Part shown: positions 1,405 through 24,083 of the stretch, piece by piece
How positions within the stretch are numbered: the first letter of the stretch is position 1
How the letters are laid out: the number at the start of each line of letters is the position of its first letter
IMG/VR virus record: IMGVR_UViG_3300044635_001885
Location: 1 to 27,314 of that record
Reading direction: 5' to 3' (one strand)
Length of the DNA: 27,314 nt
DNA from: a virus
Program-made: the position numbers and the translations under genes
The notes under the pieces: model-generated
The model's input: the letters and a program-made list of their open reading frames with translations, nothing else
What the model was told of the DNA's origin: nothing
Databases searched by the model: none

Positions 1405-1697
1405 TGCCAATGAATCGCGACAAGTACCCAGCGGACTGGGAGCAGATCGCCACAGACCTCAAGGACCAAGTGGGCTGGAAGTGTGAGGGCTGCCGAAAGC
1501 AATGTCGCAAGCCGGGCGAACCGTTTGACACGCACCGACGGACTTTAACCGTGGCCCACATCAACCATGTCGAATCCGACTGCGATCTGGGTAACTTGGT
1601 CGCACTCTGCGCACCGTGCCACCTTGCCTATGATGCCCCAATGAAACGATTTCGACGCGTCGCAAGCAAACGAAAAACCAACGTTAGCGAGTCTTAG
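1404..1697 (+). CDS. HNH endonuclease
   Basis: This 97-residue protein carries a classic small HNH domain: an early Cys pair (W-K-C-E-G-C), the catalytic H-I-N-H after a short strand, then N-L-V-A-L-C-A-P-C-H with the second zinc-binding Cys pair and final His. Such nucleases cut double-stranded DNA. In many tailed phages a small HNH protein works with the terminase at the packaging site, but here the terminase is convergent and about 1 kb away, so that partnership is inference. I chose the ATG at 1404 because it overlaps the previous stop; GTG at 1401 is an alternative. The C-terminus is basic (R-F-R-R-V-A-S-K-R-K). Confidence 0.88.
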   Translation: MPMNRDKYPADWEQIATDLKDQVGWKCEGCRKQCRKPGEPFDTHRRTLTVAHINHVESDCDLGNLVALCAPCHLAYDAPMKRFRRVASKRKTNVSES

Positions 1698-1740
1698 CAA
1701 GACTCGCACAAGCCAGAAAAAACCAAAGGATTTTCCGTCC

Positions 1741-1765
1741 GTGGTCCTAGTTGTGGTCCTGGGTT
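1741..1765. repeat. 12-bp tandem direct repeat in intergenic gap
   Basis: The gap at 1698-1800 between the HNH gene and the next gene contains two copies of gtggtcctagtt-type sequence back to back (1741-1752 and 1753-1764), differing by one base at the ninth position. It could be a protein-binding site or a promoter-proximal element for the two following genes. No convincing -10/-35 pair was found around it. Confidence 0.4.
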
Positions 1766-1780
1766 ATCCGTAGACTACAA

Positions 1781-1803
1781 GCAGCAAACAGGGGGAAACC
1801 ATG
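1781..1803 (+). promoter_or_regulatory. Translation-initiation region repeated upstream of two genes
   Basis: gcagcaaacaggggg followed by aaaccATG provides a purine-rich ribosome-binding site for the gene at 1801. Almost the same string (gcagcaaacagtggag plus aaaccATG, 2145-2168) precedes the next gene at 2166. The match covers roughly 21 of 24 positions with one gap, so the initiation region seems to have been duplicated. Confidence 0.6.
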
Positions 1804-2169
1804 GCAGCGTTTGATCACGACAAGATCCAGCAGATGCGAACGATGGAGAACTGGTCCGAACTCCAGGAGGACGACCATCATCGACAAATGCGGATCGCTA
1901 AATTCATTTTGAGCCTAGCGCGAGTTGCCAACGATCTACAGGCATTGCGACACTCGTATTCGATAATTCATAGCGCGCGAGCATCCACCCAAGCCCAAGT
2001 GCAAGGTTCGTTTAACGCTCGGCAAGCGATGGATGAGTTGGAATTCATGATCCGACAGCACTCCATTCAAACATTTGGCAAAGACATCTTCTTGCCTGGA
2101 GACCCTACGGAACTCAGATCACCCACTCTTCCGCCTGAGGGCCCGCAGCAAACAGTGGAGAAACCATGA
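1801..2169 (+). CDS. Hypothetical helical protein, 122 aa, with S-P-T-L-P-P-E-G-P tail
   Basis: A purine-rich ribosome-binding site (aggggga) lies just before the ATG. The first 100 residues look mostly helical and charged (M-R-T-M-E-N-W-S-E-L-Q-E-D-D, R-Q-A-M-D-E-L-E-F-M-I-R-Q), with no recognised domain. The last 20 residues come from a 32-bp DNA repeat that also occurs at the terminase 3' end (see repeat entries) and encodes S-P-T-L-P-P-E-G-P-Q here. The stop overlaps the next start as ATGA. Function unknown. Confidence 0.75.
   Translation: MAAFDHDKIQQMRTMENWSELQEDDHHRQMRIAKFILSLARVANDLQALRHSYSIIHSARASTQAQVQGSFNARQAMDELEFMIRQHSIQTFGKDIFLPGDPTELRSPTLPPEGPQQTVEKP
2118..2149. repeat. 32-bp repeat, copy 1
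   Basis: This copy (atcacccactcttccgcctg followed by agggcccgcagc) is identical to copy 3 at 2597-2628. It lies in the 3' end of the gene at 1801-2169 and encodes S-P-T-L-P-P-E-G-P-Q. On the opposite strand the same bases spell the terminal residues of the terminase, L-R-A-L-R-R-K-S-G and stop. Confidence 0.9.
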
Positions 2170-2636
2170 CACATCCGGACAAGTTAATTGGAGTCACTGA
2201 GGTCAACGGCATTGGCACTAGGCACATGTCATTCCGTACACAGATGACGAAAGATCAGTTTTTTGAAGCCATGAACGAACAGGGCAGGGTGTTCAAGCTT
2301 GAGATGCGTAGCTGGGACGCAGAGACGGGTGAAGCGGAAATTACCCTCGTGCCTGAAAACGGACTGATGGCGTGGTACGAGGGGCACAACCCGCCGATCG
2401 AAGACGAATCACCCACTCTTCCGCCTGAGGACCCTCATCTGGCGAGGAGCAATCTAGGATGCTTCATCAAAACGTACTTTCCAAAAGCGGAATTCGGAAT
2501 GGACATCGCGGCGTTCGCTGCTCGCACTCGAGCCGACCGGAACAATCACTTCCTCGACTCGACGAGCCTAGCCGAATTGGTACTAAAAAAAGACCCATCA
2601 CCCACTCTTCCGCCTGAGGGCCCGCAGCTCGGCTAG
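2166..2636 (+). CDS. Hypothetical 156-aa protein with terminase-derived segments
   Basis: The start overlaps the previous stop (ATGA), preceded by gtggag. Three parts are visible: an N-terminal domain of about 80 residues (D-K-L-I-G-V-T-E-V-N-G ... E-I-T-L-V-P-E-N-G) with alternating strands and a helix; a linker containing S-P-T-L-P-P-E-D-P from repeat copy 2; and a second segment with R-N-N-H-F-L-D-S-T-S-L-A that copies the terminase motif R-D-N-H-F-L-D-A-T-I-L-A, ending in S-P-T-L-P-P-E-G-P from repeat copy 3. Its last 39 bases overlap the 3' end of the convergent terminase gene. Possibly a patchwork gene built partly by copying terminase DNA. A role as a terminase mimic or regulator is speculation. 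Confidence 0.7.
   Translation: MTHPDKLIGVTEVNGIGTRHMSFRTQMTKDQFFEAMNEQGRVFKLEMRSWDAETGEAEITLVPENGLMAWYEGHNPPIEDESPTLPPEDPHLARSNLGCFIKTYFPKAEFGMDIAAFAARTRADRNNHFLDSTSLAELVLKKDPSPTLPPEGPQLG
2408..2439. repeat. 32-bp repeat, copy 2 (diverged end)
   Basis: The first 23 bases (2408-2430) match copies 1 and 3 exactly; the last nine (accctcatc versus gcccgcagc) differ at three positions. It is in the same reading frame as the other copies, giving S-P-T-L-P-P-E-D-P-H inside the 156-aa protein. Confidence 0.85.
2538..2574. repeat. Inverted copy of terminase nuclease-motif DNA (partner 2834-2870)
   Basis: The plus strand at 2538-2574 matches the minus strand of 2870-2834 at 33 of 37 positions. Both are read in the same codon frame in their own genes: R-N-N-H-F-L-D-S-T-S-L-A in the 156-aa protein and R-D-N-H-F-L-D-A-T-I-L-A in the terminase. 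Three of the four differences change the amino acid. Confidence 0.85.
2597..2628. repeat. 32-bp repeat, copy 3 (in terminase 3' end)
   Basis: Identical to copy 1. It lies in the overlap of the two convergent genes: on the minus strand it supplies the last codons and stop of the terminase, on the plus strand the S-P-T-L-P-P-E-G-P tail of the 156-aa protein. It is therefore the likely source of copies 1 and 2. Confidence 0.9.
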
Positions 2637-4859
2637 CGTCATCTTGCCATCGTTGGGCCGCTTGGCGATCTTCTCGACGGCTTCGACTCGCTGCTCGACG
2701 GGGGACGGATCTCGGGATTGATCCTGCTCGGGTCGATCCTGTCCGGATCGGTCGGACATGGAAATCTTGCGTCGGCGTACCACTCGATCGGACTCGCCAG
2801 GGACCTTCACCCCCAGGATCGATGCACCTACAGCGGCTAGGATCGTCGCGTCAAGGAAGTGATTGTCCCGTCCTGGCCTGCATCCCCACTCAAACAGCTC
2901 TCTGCCTTGCCCCTGAGTCTTCGTGGGGTATTCTGCAGAAAGGTTGTCAGCGATCATGCGGTGACGCAGCGGGGCAGCTCTGTAGAGCCACCAAGCACCA
3001 GGCTCCCCGGCATCGGTAGTCCAGCGTTCCATCATGGCCGTCTTCCAACTGTTGGTGTCTACGAGGCAGTACCTCGGAGCTCGGGTCCCTCGGGTCGGTG
3101 GCATGCGCCAGCCAAACCCCATACGCTCCCCGGCTTTCTTTTTTTCTTGGTTCCAGGGGCGTTGTCTGGCAGTGACTCCCTTACCATGGCTCGGAACCAC
3201 GTGCTGATGCATTTGAGAGAATCGATAGACGACTTCGCTTTGAAACCCTGCATCCACGACCATGATCTCAGGCCGGAACTGCGTCCCGTCGTCGCGCGTG
3301 TAAATCACCGCTTGTCGCTCGTCTCGGAGCTTGCCGAGCGCGACCAATAGCGACTCGGTAGAGGACCTAATTCCGGTGGCTCGTATGATAGTCCGATCGA
3401 TGTCGGCGAGGGTGACATAATCGATTCCAGGGTCGGGCCAGATACCATAATCGACGACGAGGCCGGAGAAGTCGGCTCCGACACCGGCAATGACCCACCA
3501 CAGCGAGGATCCTTGAACGTCGACCCCCAGGGTGATGTGCTCGACCCAGTCGGGGATTTCCCCGCGGCGGTGGGTCGGGAGTATCCGCAAGCAGAACTCG
3601 TCGGAGGTCAGGCAGCGGATGCCATCGACGGCAACAATCGATTTCTTGGGTTCATTCTGATACTCTGCGTCAAAGGTGTCCGGATTATCGAAGCGCAGAT
3701 TCTCGGCGTGCTGGATCGCCGAAATCTCGTGAGGAAACTTGCGATGTGCCCAGCCCACCCGGGACCCTGCGTCCATCGCTTCGCGGTTGGCCTTGTAAAA
3801 CTTGTTGCCCTTGGGATGCTCGTCGTTTCCTTCGGCGATCTCTTCGGCGCGGATGTCGAAGTACTTTGTCCACAATTCCCGGTTTGTCGGCCACTCATAG
3901 ACCAGCCGGCATCGATCGCCGTGCCATTTGGGCATGAGCTTGTGGTTTAGCATCCGGTCAGCTACGTCGCCCTCTCGGATCACGGTGACGGCCGCAAAGC
4001 CTGCGATTCGTTTCCCAGGCCCACCAAGGCCTAGGATTGCGCCCCCGATCACCTTTTCCCGCTTGGCACATTCCGCGTCGGACAGTGCCGAAGTGTCGGT
4101 CTGTGGGTCGTTGACGAGCACGAAACTAGGTCGAATTGTCTTGCCGTCGGCGAGTACCTTCTGCATGCCTCGGACTCGCCCAAGGATTCCGGTGCAGCGA
4201 ATAATTGCCCCAGCCGCCTGCGATCCCTCTATCGTCGGAAACACGAGCTCTTTCCGACGCCATCCAATCAGCGTTCGCTTGCCCTGGGTCGTCTGCGCGT
4301 TGCCTCGCTGGGTGATTCCCTCGAGGCATCGGATCGGAAAAGCGATCTCAGGAAAATCCTCCAGGAGCAGTGGATTGGTTTCCCACTCCATTTTGATCAC
4401 ATCGAGCGATTCCTCGGCAGCACCTTCGTCGGCTTCGACTAGGACTCCGAATCGCTGATGTCCATAGGACAGCACCCAGAGCAGGGCTCGCAACAGGACA
4501 GTTGTCTTGCCACTCCCTCGCGGCATGGCGATGCACTTCAAGCTTCCGTTGATCGCTCGCTCTTCGATTTCCTTGAGGATCCGCTCATGGTCCTCACTGA
4601 ACGGCAGCGGGAAGGACTCTTTGAAGTACGTCAGAAGGTACTTCTTGAGATTGAGCCGACAGGACTCTCGTCGCTTAGGATTGACGATCGCCGGAATCGG
4701 CCCGATGTCTCTGGCCTCGGTCGATTCCTCTTTGGCTTTGGAGGCCTGGCGTTTGCGGTGCTTGGCGTAAGAGTCCTTGGGACGCTCCGAGCCAGACTCG
4801 TTGTCGTCGTCCTCGGGATCCTCGGGAGCTGCTGCGGCTGGCGGTCGCTTCTTTGCCAT
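2598..4859 (-). CDS. Terminase large subunit, lambda gpA type
   Basis: The packaging motor and nuclease translocates phage DNA into the prohead and cuts it. The 753-residue protein has an acidic/basic low-complexity N-terminus (about residues 1-55), then an ATPase domain with Walker A P-R-G-S-G-K-T-T at 113-120 and a Walker B-like F-V-L-V-N-D-P-Q at 246-253. The C-terminal nuclease domain has T-L-G-V-D-V-Q-G, I-M-V-V-D-A-G-F and D-N-H-F-L-D (665-670), the expected acidic strand ends of the gpA family. The last 60 residues are charged. I chose the ATG at 4859 because it overlaps the upstream stop (TGATG); the frame runs on to 4982 but that would overlap the zinc-ribbon gene. It is the last gene of the late operon, an unusual place for a terminase. 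No small subunit was recognised. Confidence 0.95.
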   Translation of the reverse strand: MAKKRPPAAAAPEDPEDDDNESGSERPKDSYAKHRKRQASKAKEESTEARDIGPIPAIVNPKRRESCRLNLKKYLLTYFKESFPLPFSEDHERILKEIEERAINGSLKCIAMPRGSGKTTVLLRALLWVLSYGHQRFGVLVEADEGAAEESLDVIKMEWETNPLLLEDFPEIAFPIRCLEGITQRGNAQTTQGKRTLIGWRRKELVFPTIEGSQAAGAIIRCTGILGRVRGMQKVLADGKTIRPSFVLVNDPQTDTSALSDAECAKREKVIGGAILGLGGPGKRIAGFAAVTVIREGDVADRMLNHKLMPKWHGDRCRLVYEWPTNRELWTKYFDIRAEEIAEGNDEHPKGNKFYKANREAMDAGSRVGWAHRKFPHEISAIQHAENLRFDNPDTFDAEYQNEPKKSIVAVDGIRCLTSDEFCLRILPTHRRGEIPDWVEHITLGVDVQGSSLWWVIAGVGADFSGLVVDYGIWPDPGIDYVTLADIDRTIIRATGIRSSTESLLVALGKLRDERQAVIYTRDDGTQFRPEIMVVDAGFQSEVVYRFSQMHQHVVPSHGKGVTARQRPWNQEKKKAGERMGFGWRMPPTRGTRAPRYCLVDTNSWKTAMMERWTTDAGEPGAWWLYRAAPLRHRMIADNLSAEYPTKTQGQGRELFEWGCRPGRDNHFLDATILAAVGASILGVKVPGESDRVVRRRKISMSDRSGQDRPEQDQSRDPSPVEQRVEAVEKIAKRPNDGKMTLAELRALRRKSG

Positions 4860-19002: not shown

Positions 19003-21291
19003 CTAGGCCGCGAAGCGTTGCATCGCTCGGAAGTCGAGCGCGTTGACTCCGATGTAGTGCTTCACATCGATGACCACACCGAACTCACCGCCGGTCAGGG
19101 TCTCGGTTCGGACCACAGGAACTCGGCCAGCACCTTGGAGGTAGTTGACTTCGATCGTGCGTCCGTCTTTGGAGATGCCGTAGTACGTGGTGTCCGAACC
19201 GGCGATCGCTTGCTCGGTGACTGGGTGAACCAATCCATTCGAGAACCGAGCGTCGGTCACAGGGGTGATGCCGTACTTCTTGATCGGGTTGAGCTCACCG
19301 GACCCGCTGTCGTTCGACAGGTTGGCCGAGTAGCAAAGTTGGATCGCCAAGTCCATCAGATCAGGAGGCACAACCAAGTGCGTCATCTTGAGGTTGAGCG
19401 TAGCGTCGCCGTCTTTGACCTTGAGCAAACGTGCGATCATTTCACTCAGGGTCGCACGAGCCAAGGCCTTACCCGTCGCGGCGTTCCCGTCTGTGCTGTT
19501 GAACAAAGCGCGAGCGGTCTGCGTGAGGGTCGGGTTGCTCATGAGCAAGGCGGCGACGAGGTCAGGACGCAAGCGTCCAGCAGCGCGGCCGAAATCTTGC
19601 GGCGTGTCTTTGAGCTTCTGGAAGTTGTCGCCGAACATGTCCGCTTCGTCGATCTTCAATTGCTCGCTAAATCGGCCGACTTGAGCCTTCTCAGTCAACA
19701 CTCGGCGGTTGCCATGGCTGGCTTTCCCACCGACTGGGTGGTGCTTCAAATTCGGAGCGGCTTGCATCCGGTTGTTGTTGTGCTCCTCAAGGTCAGGACG
19801 CTCGCTTTCGCTGCAAATCCCTTGCGAGAAGTCATCGACTTCGGCGTAGCTTTCGAGCATTTTCGCACCGAGGGTCGCACCGAACAGAACCGCGACAGTC
19901 CCGGAGGAAAAGGACGCTTGGACCATGTCGATCCGGTTGGACGGGACATCGATCCCGCGAGCTTGGAGACCGAGCTTACAGGTCTCCACGAGAGTCAAGT
20001 CTCGGTACTGATGGGCAAGGTCGCTGGTGCGTGCGCGAACTGGGTCGTTTGCACCGGCTTGCAGCCATCCAGGAAGCTTGGCTCGGACATCGCGATTCTC
20101 AAAACTGGACGAATCAAGCCGCATTCCAGCACGCAACATGACTCCACCCTGGATTGCTCCGAGGTCGATCGACGTCTGGCTAGCTCGCGAGTGGATCGCG
20201 GGGCCTCGTGGGCGAGAATCCCGGGAGGCTTCGAGGTCTTGATGGCGTCGAGCAAGCAGCTCGGTCTGATCGCCGGTGAGGCCGTTCTCGATGGCGTGTG
20301 CAGCCAGGTCGACATTCTTGCCACCGACCATGACGGTCGGATTGCCGAACTTGGCACAGAGCGTGGTGACTTCGCCGACTCGCTTGGTCTCAGCGGCCAT
20401 CTGCGATCGGTAGGCGGCCAAATCCAAGGTGCTACCAGCGGTCAGATCGGGCGAAGCGGAAGAAGCAGCAGCGGTCGCAGGCTTGGCCATGTGTGGCTCC
20501 ATTGGTTTGTTGGGGTCGGCGGCAGAAGCGTCAGGAGGTTGCGAACCCGCACCAGCGTCCGTGCTGGCAGGGTCCGCAGAGGAATCGAGGCTCTCGGCGT
20601 AGGAGACTTTCAGAGCGTTGACGGCCTCGGGAGTAAGAGTCGCAGGATCGAGTCCGAGGGTCTGGCAATAGTCTTCGAAGGTTGGCATGTTTGATGTGGC
20701 CGAAGCGGCAATAGAGACAGAGGATTCTGGGTCGCCTGGAATCGTTACCAAGGAGACCTCTTTAAGCTGCGATCGCTTGACGACGAGGACAGGACCATCG
20801 AAAGTGCGTCCATTGCACTGGAGGGTCTGACCCTGCGGAATCGTGGAGTAAGTGAGGATCTTCACGCCGACCGATGGTCGCCAAGGAAATCCGTTTCTCG
20901 CTCCCGATACAATCTCCTGCTGATCGATCGAGGGGACCGAGAACACTCCGGTGACAGAGAGCTTGGTACCATCGTTGGCCACAGCAGTCAGATGGCCGAC
21001 AGGCCTGGATTCGTCGTGGTCTCGATGCACTGGTCCGACCGGTGCGTCGAGGCCTGCTAGGTCAATCACCACCGGACCATTCCACTGGATTGCAAGCTTG
21101 GGATGCATCACACCCCCGGTATAGGCGATCCCACTAAAACTGGGCAGCGCGTCGGGGGTGTTGGGATCTGCGGCTTGCAAGGCGATGGAGTCGCCACTGG
21201 TGCGCAGTTCCAAGTTGCTCTTGGACGATGCGACAATGACACTGGGGTCTCGTCGCTTGCGTTTCGTGGTTGCCCGGATCGATTTGCTCAT
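19003..21291 (-). CDS. Prohead protease / major capsid protein fusion
   Basis: The 762-residue protein joins two functions usually found in separate genes. The N-terminal part (about residues 30-200) resembles a prohead serine protease: V-H-R-D-H-D-E-S-R-P-V-G (catalytic His candidate), F-P-W-R-P-S-V-G-V-K (catalytic Ser candidate) and L-K-E-V-S-L-V-T-I-P-G-D. A scaffold-like Ala/Pro/Ser linker (about 210-330) follows, then an HK97/Mu gpT-like capsid shell (about 390-762) with V-V-P-P-D-L-M-D-L-A and I-D-V-K-H-Y-I-G-V-N-A-L-D-F-R. The same arrangement is a known phage annotation class. The frame opens at TTG 21333; I prefer the ATG at 21291, but neither has a good ribosome-binding site. Confidence 0.85.
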   Translation of the reverse strand: MSKSIRATTKRKRRDPSVIVASSKSNLELRTSGDSIALQAADPNTPDALPSFSGIAYTGGVMHPKLAIQWNGPVVIDLAGLDAPVGPVHRDHDESRPVGHLTAVANDGTKLSVTGVFSVPSIDQQEIVSGARNGFPWRPSVGVKILTYSTIPQGQTLQCNGRTFDGPVLVVKRSQLKEVSLVTIPGDPESSVSIAASATSNMPTFEDYCQTLGLDPATLTPEAVNALKVSYAESLDSSADPASTDAGAGSQPPDASAADPNKPMEPHMAKPATAAASSASPDLTAGSTLDLAAYRSQMAAETKRVGEVTTLCAKFGNPTVMVGGKNVDLAAHAIENGLTGDQTELLARRHQDLEASRDSRPRGPAIHSRASQTSIDLGAIQGGVMLRAGMRLDSSSFENRDVRAKLPGWLQAGANDPVRARTSDLAHQYRDLTLVETCKLGLQARGIDVPSNRIDMVQASFSSGTVAVLFGATLGAKMLESYAEVDDFSQGICSESERPDLEEHNNNRMQAAPNLKHHPVGGKASHGNRRVLTEKAQVGRFSEQLKIDEADMFGDNFQKLKDTPQDFGRAAGRLRPDLVAALLMSNPTLTQTARALFNSTDGNAATGKALARATLSEMIARLLKVKDGDATLNLKMTHLVVPPDLMDLAIQLCYSANLSNDSGSGELNPIKKYGITPVTDARFSNGLVHPVTEQAIAGSDTTYYGISKDGRTIEVNYLQGAGRVPVVRTETLTGGEFGVVIDVKHYIGVNALDFRAMQRFAA

Positions 21292-21336
21292 GGGGACGAG
21301 ACTACCACTCGACCCCAAAAAACCGTCCAACAAGAG

Positions 21337-22380
21337 TTACAAATCAGCCTTCGCCCAGTCCGAGTCCGGAATGATCGCATAACTGGTCATCGCGACTTTT
21401 TCCGAGTTGCCGATCCACTTCGAAGCGGTCGCAAGTCCGAAGGCAGTGATCAGTTCCGTCTCTCGAGTGGCTCGCATCGAATGCCAAGGCACCGGCCATG
21501 GATCGAGTCCTGCCTTGCGAACAACCTCGAGAAATCGCTGTGTGATCCCCGAGTGCGAGAGGCTTGCGATCGTCGGCAGCAGCTCGACGCCTGGTGCGGG
21601 GAGCTCGGCAGCGATCTCACGGAATAGCGGGATCTCTCGGACCATCCCTCGCTTGGTGTCTGTGATCTTGATCCGTTTTAAGCCCCGGTCGATCGATGCT
21701 TGCGTGAAGTCGCGAATCTCGCTGGAAATCCGCAGGCCTCCGAATCGAGACAGCACAATCACAAGCCGCAGCTCAGGATCGTCGCAGGCCTGGAGGACTC
21801 GCTCGATGGTCTCCACCGAAACGAATCGTTTCTCTCGCACTGAGACCGTGGTCTTGAGTCGCTTGGCCGGATTGGCAACGATCCACCGATTGTCCTCGCA
21901 CCAGCGAAAGAAAGCTTTCCAATCCTTGGCGATTTTTCCCCGAGTGGACGCACCTTGCTCGAGCGCATCATAGACGGTGGCAATTTCCTCCGGGGACACT
22001 CCATCGATTCGCCGATCACCGCAGGCATCGGACAGATGGGCCAGAGATCGACCAACCGATTCGGCGGTCGATGTGGCAAGCAGATCTCGCTTGGCGTTGA
22101 GATACTCGTCGATCGCAGTCCGGACGGTGCGGATGGATCCGGTGATGCAAGTGAGCTTGGATTTGATTTCCTGGTCCAGACGATCGAGCCAAAGGGCTGT
22201 TTGCCTTGGGATGGGTAGGTCTGCGGTCTGGGCGGCGATGATCTCGTCGACATGTCGCTGGATGGCGATCGCTTCGGGCTCGGTGATGCGTCCGAGCCAG
22301 ATCGAGCGACGTCCGGCAGCGGTGTAGACTCGAAGGCGATAGCCTTGACGAGTCTTTGCCTCGTGCGTCAGCGAGCTCAC
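21337..22380 (-). CDS. Tyrosine recombinase (phage integrase family)
   Basis: The 347-residue protein has an N-terminal arm/core-binding region (about 1-175) and a C-terminal catalytic domain with Arg I in G-G-L-R-I (R217), Lys in T-D-T-K-R-G (K243), H-S-M-R-A-T (H300, R303) and Tyr in T-S-Y-A-I-I (Y334). The usual His/Trp before Tyr is Asn in W-I-G-N-S (N325), as I recall for many planctomycete recombinases. It starts with a GTG overlapping the portal stop (GTGA) and ends just before the capsid gene, so it is co-expressed with head genes. That placement is atypical for an integrase. It probably integrates or excises the genome, or resolves multimers; no att pair was found in the window. Confidence 0.92.
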   Translation of the reverse strand: MSSLTHEAKTRQGYRLRVYTAAGRRSIWLGRITEPEAIAIQRHVDEIIAAQTADLPIPRQTALWLDRLDQEIKSKLTCITGSIRTVRTAIDEYLNAKRDLLATSTAESVGRSLAHLSDACGDRRIDGVSPEEIATVYDALEQGASTRGKIAKDWKAFFRWCEDNRWIVANPAKRLKTTVSVREKRFVSVETIERVLQACDDPELRLVIVLSRFGGLRISSEIRDFTQASIDRGLKRIKITDTKRGMVREIPLFREIAAELPAPGVELLPTIASLSHSGITQRFLEVVRKAGLDPWPVPWHSMRATRETELITAFGLATASKWIGNSEKVAMTSYAIIPDSDWAKADL

Positions 22381-24083
22381 GCTGGTTGCTCTTCGTACTC
22401 GGACACAAGATTGTTGATCGTGCTTTCCTTGAGTCCAAGCGACCCCAGGAACACTCTCGCTCGAGACGTCGTCCAGATTCCTTCCTCGATCTTACCGAGG
22501 GTGTCCTCGATCGCTCGCCAGTTGCGGGTGAGTTGCAAACGGGACATGTTCGCAAATTCCCCGGTTGGAGCGGGTTGGCTAGGATCTGGCTCGGCAGCGC
22601 CTGTACTTTGGGCCGCAGCTCCGGGCGCACCAGAAGCACTAGGAGCACCAGGTGCGGCGCCTGCAGGAGCGGGTGGCCTGTCAGGATTTACCCAGCCTTC
22701 CTCGACGAGCTGCTGCGCGTGAGCTTCGGGGTCGATGTTCTGCTCGATTAGGTATTGTTGACGAGTCTTAAGACCGGCCCGGATCAGTTCGATGTTGACG
22801 TCTGCGATTTCCGCAGGATTCACATCTCGCTGTGGTGGCCATCGCCAAACCTTGGGAATCTCATCGGTCGGTTCGATCGCTGGCAAGTAGCCGTCCATAA
22901 GCAAGGCTTCATCGAGCCACCAACCGAAGATCCGGTCGAGGGCTTCGATTTCCCACCACTGGGATCGCTCAATGGCAACTGATTCGTGATAGGTCTGGTG
23001 GTCCAACCGGCCTGAGGAATAGTTGTACCCGCTTGAATCCGCGAGGACTTTGTTTTTAGGCATGTGTACGCAACGTGCAATCTCGCCAAGGATCGCATTG
23101 CGGAATTCGGTATAGGTCGTCACTGGTTGCTTCGGATCGAACTGGACCATCTCCCAGCCTTTGGGCAGGCTTGTCATCAGTCCTCGATCGATCTGCACGA
23201 AGTCAAACGGGTCGATGTCGTCAATCCCGTCGGACGCAGAATCGAAGGCATTGGACTGAGTCTTGAGAATCGCCGAGAAGTCCGCAGCATTTTCGGCAGC
23301 AGTGATCACCGCCAGGGTGTATCGACGCAGCATGGCGAACAGCGGCAAGGCAGGTGTCAGCTCGGGAATTCCGCGCATCTGTCCAGGTCGCTCGGCGCGG
23401 AATAGGTGGATAATGTCGTCGGGGTCGACATCCTCTTTTTCGAATGCATCCAGCGGCCATCGGTCGCCAGGGTGTCCTTTAAGGATGTGGTAGACCGTTG
23501 GATTTCCAAAGTCGTCGAACTCAATACCGTCTACTTTGTTTGGCAGTCCGTCGGCGAAGTAAGGCGTCGCAAGTTGGTCGCACTCGATGACTCGTAGATC
23601 CAGCTTTACATCGTTCTTTGATCGCGGGTTGTTGCCTTTGAGTATGACGGTCTCACCATCGATAACCTTAGCGATCCGGGCAGTGCGAAGCTTGCTCGCC
23701 AGCCGCACGTCCTTTGCCCATTTGCGCCACTTTGCCTCGATCATGCGAGAGGCAGTAGTGTCAGGGAGCATCACCTGTAGACTTGGCCCGGTCGAGATGC
23801 AATCGTTGGCCAGGGTCAGAACTACCCCCTTCGCGAAGCTATTGTTTTCCATGCATTCGTAGCGAGATCGCTCGCGCAGTGTCTTGCGCACCGAGACCGA
23901 GTTGGCCGCAGCAGCGGAGAGATTGTCGGCGTATCGCCAGTGCTTCGATGTCTCTGCGGTGTTGGCCGCAGCATCGTAAGAGGCCGACAGCGAGTCCATT
24001 CGCTTGGCTCGATCCTGGACCCGACGAGCGGCAGCCAGGGCCTTGGTGTCGATCGGCTTTCCGTATTGATCTAGCAGCATCAT
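22377..24083 (-). CDS. Portal protein, lambda gpB type
   Basis: The dodecameric portal forms the DNA channel at one capsid vertex. The 568-residue product has the family pattern: E-N-N-S-F-A-K-G-V-V near the N-terminus, I-P-E-L-T-P-A-L-P-L-F-A-M-L-R-R-Y-T in the middle, then A-E-N-A-A-D, P-K-G-W-E-M-V-Q-F-D-P-K-Q-P and S-S-G-Y-N-Y-S-S-G-R-L. The C-terminus carries an extra Pro/Ala/Gly-rich stretch (about residues 470-515) and a helical tail, longer than in lambda. ATG ATG at 24083/24080 gives two possible starts. gpW-like gene upstream and protease/capsid downstream complete a lambda-like head module. Confidence 0.92.
   Translation of the reverse strand: MMLLDQYGKPIDTKALAAARRVQDRAKRMDSLSASYDAAANTAETSKHWRYADNLSAAAANSVSVRKTLRERSRYECMENNSFAKGVVLTLANDCISTGPSLQVMLPDTTASRMIEAKWRKWAKDVRLASKLRTARIAKVIDGETVILKGNNPRSKNDVKLDLRVIECDQLATPYFADGLPNKVDGIEFDDFGNPTVYHILKGHPGDRWPLDAFEKEDVDPDDIIHLFRAERPGQMRGIPELTPALPLFAMLRRYTLAVITAAENAADFSAILKTQSNAFDSASDGIDDIDPFDFVQIDRGLMTSLPKGWEMVQFDPKQPVTTYTEFRNAILGEIARCVHMPKNKVLADSSGYNYSSGRLDHQTYHESVAIERSQWWEIEALDRIFGWWLDEALLMDGYLPAIEPTDEIPKVWRWPPQRDVNPAEIADVNIELIRAGLKTRQQYLIEQNIDPEAHAQQLVEEGWVNPDRPPAPAGAAPGAPSASGAPGAAAQSTGAAEPDPSQPAPTGEFANMSRLQLTRNWRAIEDTLGKIEEGIWTTSRARVFLGSLGLKESTINNLVSEYEEQPA

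Follow-up and report, generated by a model that had tools for sequence, protein, structure and literature searches.

A mosaic cassette junction at the 3' end of a phage terminase gene carries an inverted copy of the terminase nuclease motif, probably as a neutral extension of a small accessory protein

The window analysed here is a 27,314-nt stretch of DNA (IMG/VR record IMGVR_UViG_3300044635_001885, positions 1-27,314), which we compared with about 30 IMG/VR contigs (L numbers below) carrying a close relative of its terminase. The features of the region are collected in Table 1. The long minus-strand gene encodes a lambda gpA-type terminase large subunit, its product having both the nuclease domain (Pfam GpA_nuclease PF20454, E 7.4e-19, above the cut-off) and a terminase profile (PHROG terminase large subunit phrog_15, E 5e-22). 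As modelled, its nuclease domain is similar to RNase H folds of the RuvC type (best E 1.7e-3), and in this model the nuclease motif opens a helix at residues 264-278, starting with H264. The R, N, H and D of R-x-N-H-x-x-D are invariant across 14 terminases, and, going by what this type of fold usually does, H-x-x-D is probably catalytic. Searching solved structures with the terminase sequence returned chance matches only, and the terminases of known phages that were searched proved distant. The single genome match, at 41% identity, was a contig of a Planctomycetota metagenome-assembled genome, which at best weakly suggests a host in that phylum.

Table 1. Features at the convergent junction between the cassette genes and the terminase gene (window coordinates).
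Feature	Position	Strand	Remarks
Cassette gene A, 122 aa	1801..2169	+	Ends in scar 1; also in L053 (98% DNA identity)
Scar 1, copy of the terminase 3' end	2119..2150	+	Closes gene A
156-aa ORF	2166..2636	+	Gene B followed by a scar, the unit and a tail antisense to the terminase
Body of cassette gene B, 81 aa	2166..2408	+	Uninserted version is a 93-aa ORF in L039, 98% identical DNA
Scar-bounded 189-bp unit (63 codons)	2409..2597	+	Not in L039, L040, L041 or L045; in L054 with other context
Scar 2 (SPTLPPEDPHL), a terminase 3' end copy that has diverged	2409..2440	+	Same variant in L054
Left part of the unit, no assigned origin	2441..2537	+	Identical copies in the L036, L037 and L054 contigs alone
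Inverted 37-bp motif copy, in-frame reading RNNHFLDSTSLA	2538..2574	+	Inverted repeat, alignment, shuffles
Homologue of the gene C 3' end	2568..2597	+	23/30 in L014, 22/30 in L047; overlaps right edge of motif copy
Antisense of terminase 3' end, reference 32-bp repeat	2598..2629	+	Read by the convergent ORF as part of SPTLPPEGPQLG
Terminase large subunit, lambda gpA type, 754 aa	2598..4862	-	Convergent with the cassette genes; profile matches
Nuclease motif RDNHFLDATILA, terminase residues 665-676	2834..2870	-	Source type of the copy; inverted repeat, alignment

Small genes on the plus strand converge on the terminase, and among them lie three 32-bp repeats (starting at 2119, 2409 and 2598) that are copies of one sequence, where none would be expected by chance. 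The rightmost is the antisense of the last terminase codons, with the stop codon appearing as TCA at 2598-2600; we call the others scars. Most relatives have a single copy, the terminase end itself. Three copies occur in the window and in two near-identical contigs, four in L054 (at reverse-complement coordinates 4199, 4463, 4652 and 4998), and two each in L047/L057 and L053. When whole contigs of ten relatives were searched, the 32-bp sequence was confined to the surroundings of the junction or, in one contig starting inside gene B, to the contig ends. That contig (L008/L010, IMGVR_UViG_3300042555_002174, 39639 bp) ends with gene B and 31 bases of the scar, which reflects either a circular genome cut at this place or an assembly break at the repeat.

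Across the relatives, nine gene bodies (A-H and J) abut the terminase end or its scar: gene A in the window and L053; gene B in the window, the L039 group and L056; gene C in L038, L014, L042, L047, L053 and L018; gene D in L054 and L055; gene E in L050 and L062; gene F in L052 and L054; gene G in L031; gene H in L047; and gene J in L054. In all nine the joint falls on one and the same base, in the stop codon of the terminase (ATCACCC; ATTACCC in mutated copies). The phase is fixed as well. In the 20 scars examined, the preceding gene enters in the SPTLPPEG frame, so that the resident gene ends in SPTLPPEGPQLG; gene H alone has its own stop two codons earlier, in the same frame. Different upstream proteins thereby acquire a shared proline-rich tail. 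The relatedness of genes B and C means that these two joints need not have arisen independently. Genes B, C and D and the 189-bp unit are each found flanked by scars on both sides, and the left edges of the cassettes vary: they begin with a leader of the type GCAGCAAACAGG or GGAGAAGC, or the scar is absent (L038, L039, L055). Searches of Pfam and PHROG with gene A, gene B and the unit found no matching family.

The modules of this junction differ in divergence and in neighbours from one relative to another, as mosaic recombination predicts, and the repeated gene end lies at their borders, as it would if recombination took place at the mosaic boundaries. Gene A is 98% identical to its counterpart in L053, whose terminase is 85-89% identical, and gene B is 98% identical to that of L039, with a terminase at 85-93%. 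Since the identity of gene A, gene B and the unit exceeds that of the adjacent terminase, the modules have had separate histories.

The 156-aa ORF is a lengthened gene B. In L039, L040, L041 and L045, gene B is joined straight to the terminase end and encodes an intact 93-aa protein; L056 has the same join, cut by the contig edge. The window differs from the L039 group by exactly 189 bp between two scars, which remove the stop and extend the protein from 93 to 156 residues. Besides the lineage of the window, the unit is known from one other, L054, where it is 99.4% identical and carries the same diverged left scar. There gene F precedes it and gene D follows, and it forms part of a fused ORF of 242 aa. 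Because the terminase beside it is only 85.8-90.2% identical in DNA and its neighbours in L054 are different, we conclude that the unit moved recently, as a module.

Within the unit lies the stretch that had first drawn attention to the locus. The first-pass annotation had reported a 33/37 inverted match that keeps the codon frame, and a repeat search together with a shuffle-tested alignment bears this out. The arms at 2538-2574 and 2834-2870 (37 nt, 89% complementary) are separated by 259 nt. When 2401-2597 is aligned locally with the terminase, the best score is 29; 500 dinucleotide shuffles reach at most 19. The match is far beyond chance. As a short tract matching inverted nearby sequence between flanks unrelated to the source, it has the form of an inverted patch. 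The closest source type is the L039 terminase: against the terminases of L039, L040, L041 and L045 the copy has just three mismatches and a 24-nt exact run. The residues were also as annotated, RNNHFLDSTSLA against RDNHFLDATILA, with three of the four base differences non-synonymous. The Ala-to-Ser change (TCG) occurs naturally among terminases, several relatives having RDNHFLDSTILA, and the Ile-to-Ser change, a T-to-G producing an AGC codon, has the base of gene C at the joint. Asp-to-Asn, a single base, is the one residue difference left unexplained. With two of three thus accounted for by terminase variation and the joint, the changes that look like divergence are in large part explained. 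The description of the junction as a patchwork copied from the terminase likewise held, in that it comprises three copies of the terminase 3' end and one inverted internal fragment.

The unit is thus a chimera, which reads, in order, as a scar, an unassigned piece, the terminase tract, the tail of gene C and a second scar. Its match to the gene C tail (23/30) compares with a random mean of 7.3, and the two tracts share the stretch GACGA.CC.AGCCG, in which the candidate sources hardly differ. Taken alone, the pre-existing similarity between the gene C tail and the motif falls short of significance (p 0.03-0.7). Outside the 37 bp, the rest of the unit has no detectable terminase derivation in DNA on either strand, and we rejected an origin of the whole unit from the terminase on this ground. 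A second terminase-like piece, resembling the N-terminal TYFP helix (RSNLGCFIKTYFPKA and RLNLKKYLLTYFPEA, 8/15 in protein), is suggestive only; it gave p<0.002 in one shuffle test but an E of about 1 in a wider search, with at most 26/45 in DNA. The left part, 2441-2537, matched no phage or family and no relative beyond the copies listed in Table 1. Homologues of the unit, sought in phages and in 392 genomes of the phylum, yielded none that was convincing, and no ancestral form of the unit lacking the motif copy turned up among the relatives searched.

By codon usage the unit may be translated. It scores +0.125 per codon in the frame of the ORF and negative in every other, and gene B behaves alike, positive in frame and negative in the other frames. 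A 52-aa frame at 2459, with AGGAG before its ATG, was rejected because its codon usage is less favourable than that of the main frame. The unit of the window and that of L054 show one synonymous difference (2585). As the 12-codon segment is known from two lineages only, nearly identical to each other, selection on it is not measurable. The AlphaFold prediction for the 156-aa ORF has a pLDDT of 42; its N-terminal half forms a weak beta-beta-alpha-beta-beta arrangement, in which residues 19-62 reach only 50-70, and residues 63-145, the motif included, stay below 50.

Might the 156-aa protein nevertheless imitate the catalytic helix of the terminase and so bind or titrate some factor of packaging? 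In favour of this, the in-frame copy has N-H-F-L-D intact, and the codon usage of the unit is coding-like. The first-pass annotation had accordingly proposed a decoy or regulator of the packaging motor, or else just debris, and had named beforehand, as one refutation of its reading, homologues that lack the segment and show no conservation. Such homologues of gene B exist in L039, L040, L041 and L045, so the segment is not conserved among them; where it does occur, in the two lineages, L054 reads through it within an unrelated fused ORF. The changed residues are explained largely by terminase variation and the joint, and the region around the motif has no confident predicted structure. In the terminase the motif belongs to a helix of the nuclease domain, and judging from the model a 12-residue piece in isolation would offer no obvious binding surface. 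No fold, family or conservation speaks for a decoy or regulator, which we regard as very improbable, and debris emerged from the comparison of relatives as the best-supported option. A role of the copy as regulatory DNA or RNA, with the 37-bp inverted repeat pairing the convergent transcripts or forming a terminator, is very improbable as well: the repeat does span the convergent junction, but its arms are far apart, a promoter and terminator scan of 1500-3100 found neither, and the repeat is missing from most relatives with the same convergent arrangement. The chance that the array is an assembly chimera is similarly slight. The window is a metagenomic contig with repeats at the junction, yet the same array recurs in L036 and L037, with single-base differences at most in the region, and the unit is found again in L054 in other surroundings, which makes an artefact of assembly unlikely.

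We consider it probable that the junction is a mosaic, cassette-like one in which a module insertion and an inverted template-switch patch have left a likely neutral extension. Small accessory genes would be exchanged beside the terminase by recombination anchored on its conserved 3' end, and where a new cassette entered while the old one stayed, a copy of the terminase end would be kept as a scar. The 93-aa gene B was lengthened by a scar-bounded unit of 63 codons that travels between lineages. Inside that unit, tens of bases of the terminase sense strand may have been copied by an inverted template switch or illegitimate joint and joined to the gene C 3' end at the microhomology; such an event would be the simplest cause of the motif copy. 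The outcome would be a C-terminal extension, most likely neutral and without a role in packaging. What counts against this explanation, besides the failure to find an ancestral unit lacking the motif copy, the non-significant similarity of the gene C tail to the motif and the codon usage that would allow translation, is the single joining base and phase of nine genes, a uniformity beyond what joints made at random would show. Two processes narrow the choice: the need for an intact terminase holds one side in place by selection, and a given joint can be passed on when exchange by homology recurs at old scars. Neither accounts for the founding joints of the nine genes. The shared base and phase would suit a site-specific system in which the 32-bp terminase end is a recombination site and a recombinase inserts one-gene cassettes, as in integrons. 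Scars flank genes B, C and D and the unit on both sides, the repeats are confined to the junction, and these phages encode tyrosine recombinases. The left edges, however, are variable and in places scar-less instead of being fixed like the right ones, homologous recombination within a conserved gene end of 30-60 bp gives an equal pattern, and the integrase gene of the window is unlinked to the junction; we therefore hold such a system to be unlikely. There is also an outside chance that the terminase 3' end doubles as a dedicated docking site, where one-gene modules enter at a fixed base and phase. Each resident accessory protein would then gain a common C-terminal tag, SPTLPPEGPQLG, that overprints the terminase, with selection acting on this tag or on the docking site.

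The closest precedent we found for the mosaic junction is gene 68 of mycobacteriophage Island3, which has its C-terminal 18 residues in common with gene 67 through repeats of about 50 bp (PMC3029335). There too a small gene of unassigned function carries its neighbour's gene end as a direct repeat of tens of bp, and recombination between repeats has been invoked; here, by contrast, the repeated end is the antisense of a convergent terminase, the scars stack, and many genes share the repeat. PMC2327257 and PMC3945230 report relaxed homologous recombination by Rad52-like and Red proteins in temperate phages, which by analogy would be a candidate mechanism for exchange where homology is short or diverged. 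In E. coli and phage T4, imperfect inverted repeats are known sites of template switching (PMC7202029), and in yeast this switching produces multi-base non-synonymous changes without selection that can mimic adaptive protein change (PMC8604942). Like such quasipalindrome events, our patch is a short inverted tract that copies a nearby arm almost perfectly and brings several non-synonymous changes together; it differs in the distance between the arms (259 nt), in being part of a chimeric unit, and in that the parental sequence was not found. With integron cassettes the junction shares one gene and one short repeated site per unit, in arrays at a fixed locus, but its repeat is simply a coding gene end and the left cassette edges vary. 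The junction is thus a fresh example of known processes. The apparent mimic seen in a single sequence, however striking, dissolves once relatives are compared, and what is left is an unusually legible record of phage mosaicism, with stacked scars, separate module histories and an inverted tract at a microhomology. The fixed base and phase of the nine genes is the one feature meriting further attention.

Several further elements of the window were also observed. Upstream of gene A, a non-coding block (about 1679-1802, plus strand) is kept in most relatives, at 96-98% identity in close ones; it contains a hairpin, GCGAGTCTTAGCAAGACTCGC, the repeated sequence GTGGTCCT and, as leader, GCAGCAAACAGGGGGAAACC, which is found again in front of several cassette genes. 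An HNH endonuclease gene (1407-1697, plus strand; PHROG HNH, E 1e-15), present also in L052, lies some 0.9 kb away from the 3' end of the terminase gene; in other phages the terminase can be assisted by proteins of the HNH type. The tyrosine recombinase/integrase gene (21337-22380, minus strand) is situated inside the structural operon, between the portal (22377-24083) and a prohead protease-capsid fusion (19003-21333). In three relatives it adjoins the portal, conserved at 75-97%, and relatives also carry a second, distant integrase (28-31% identical) elsewhere.
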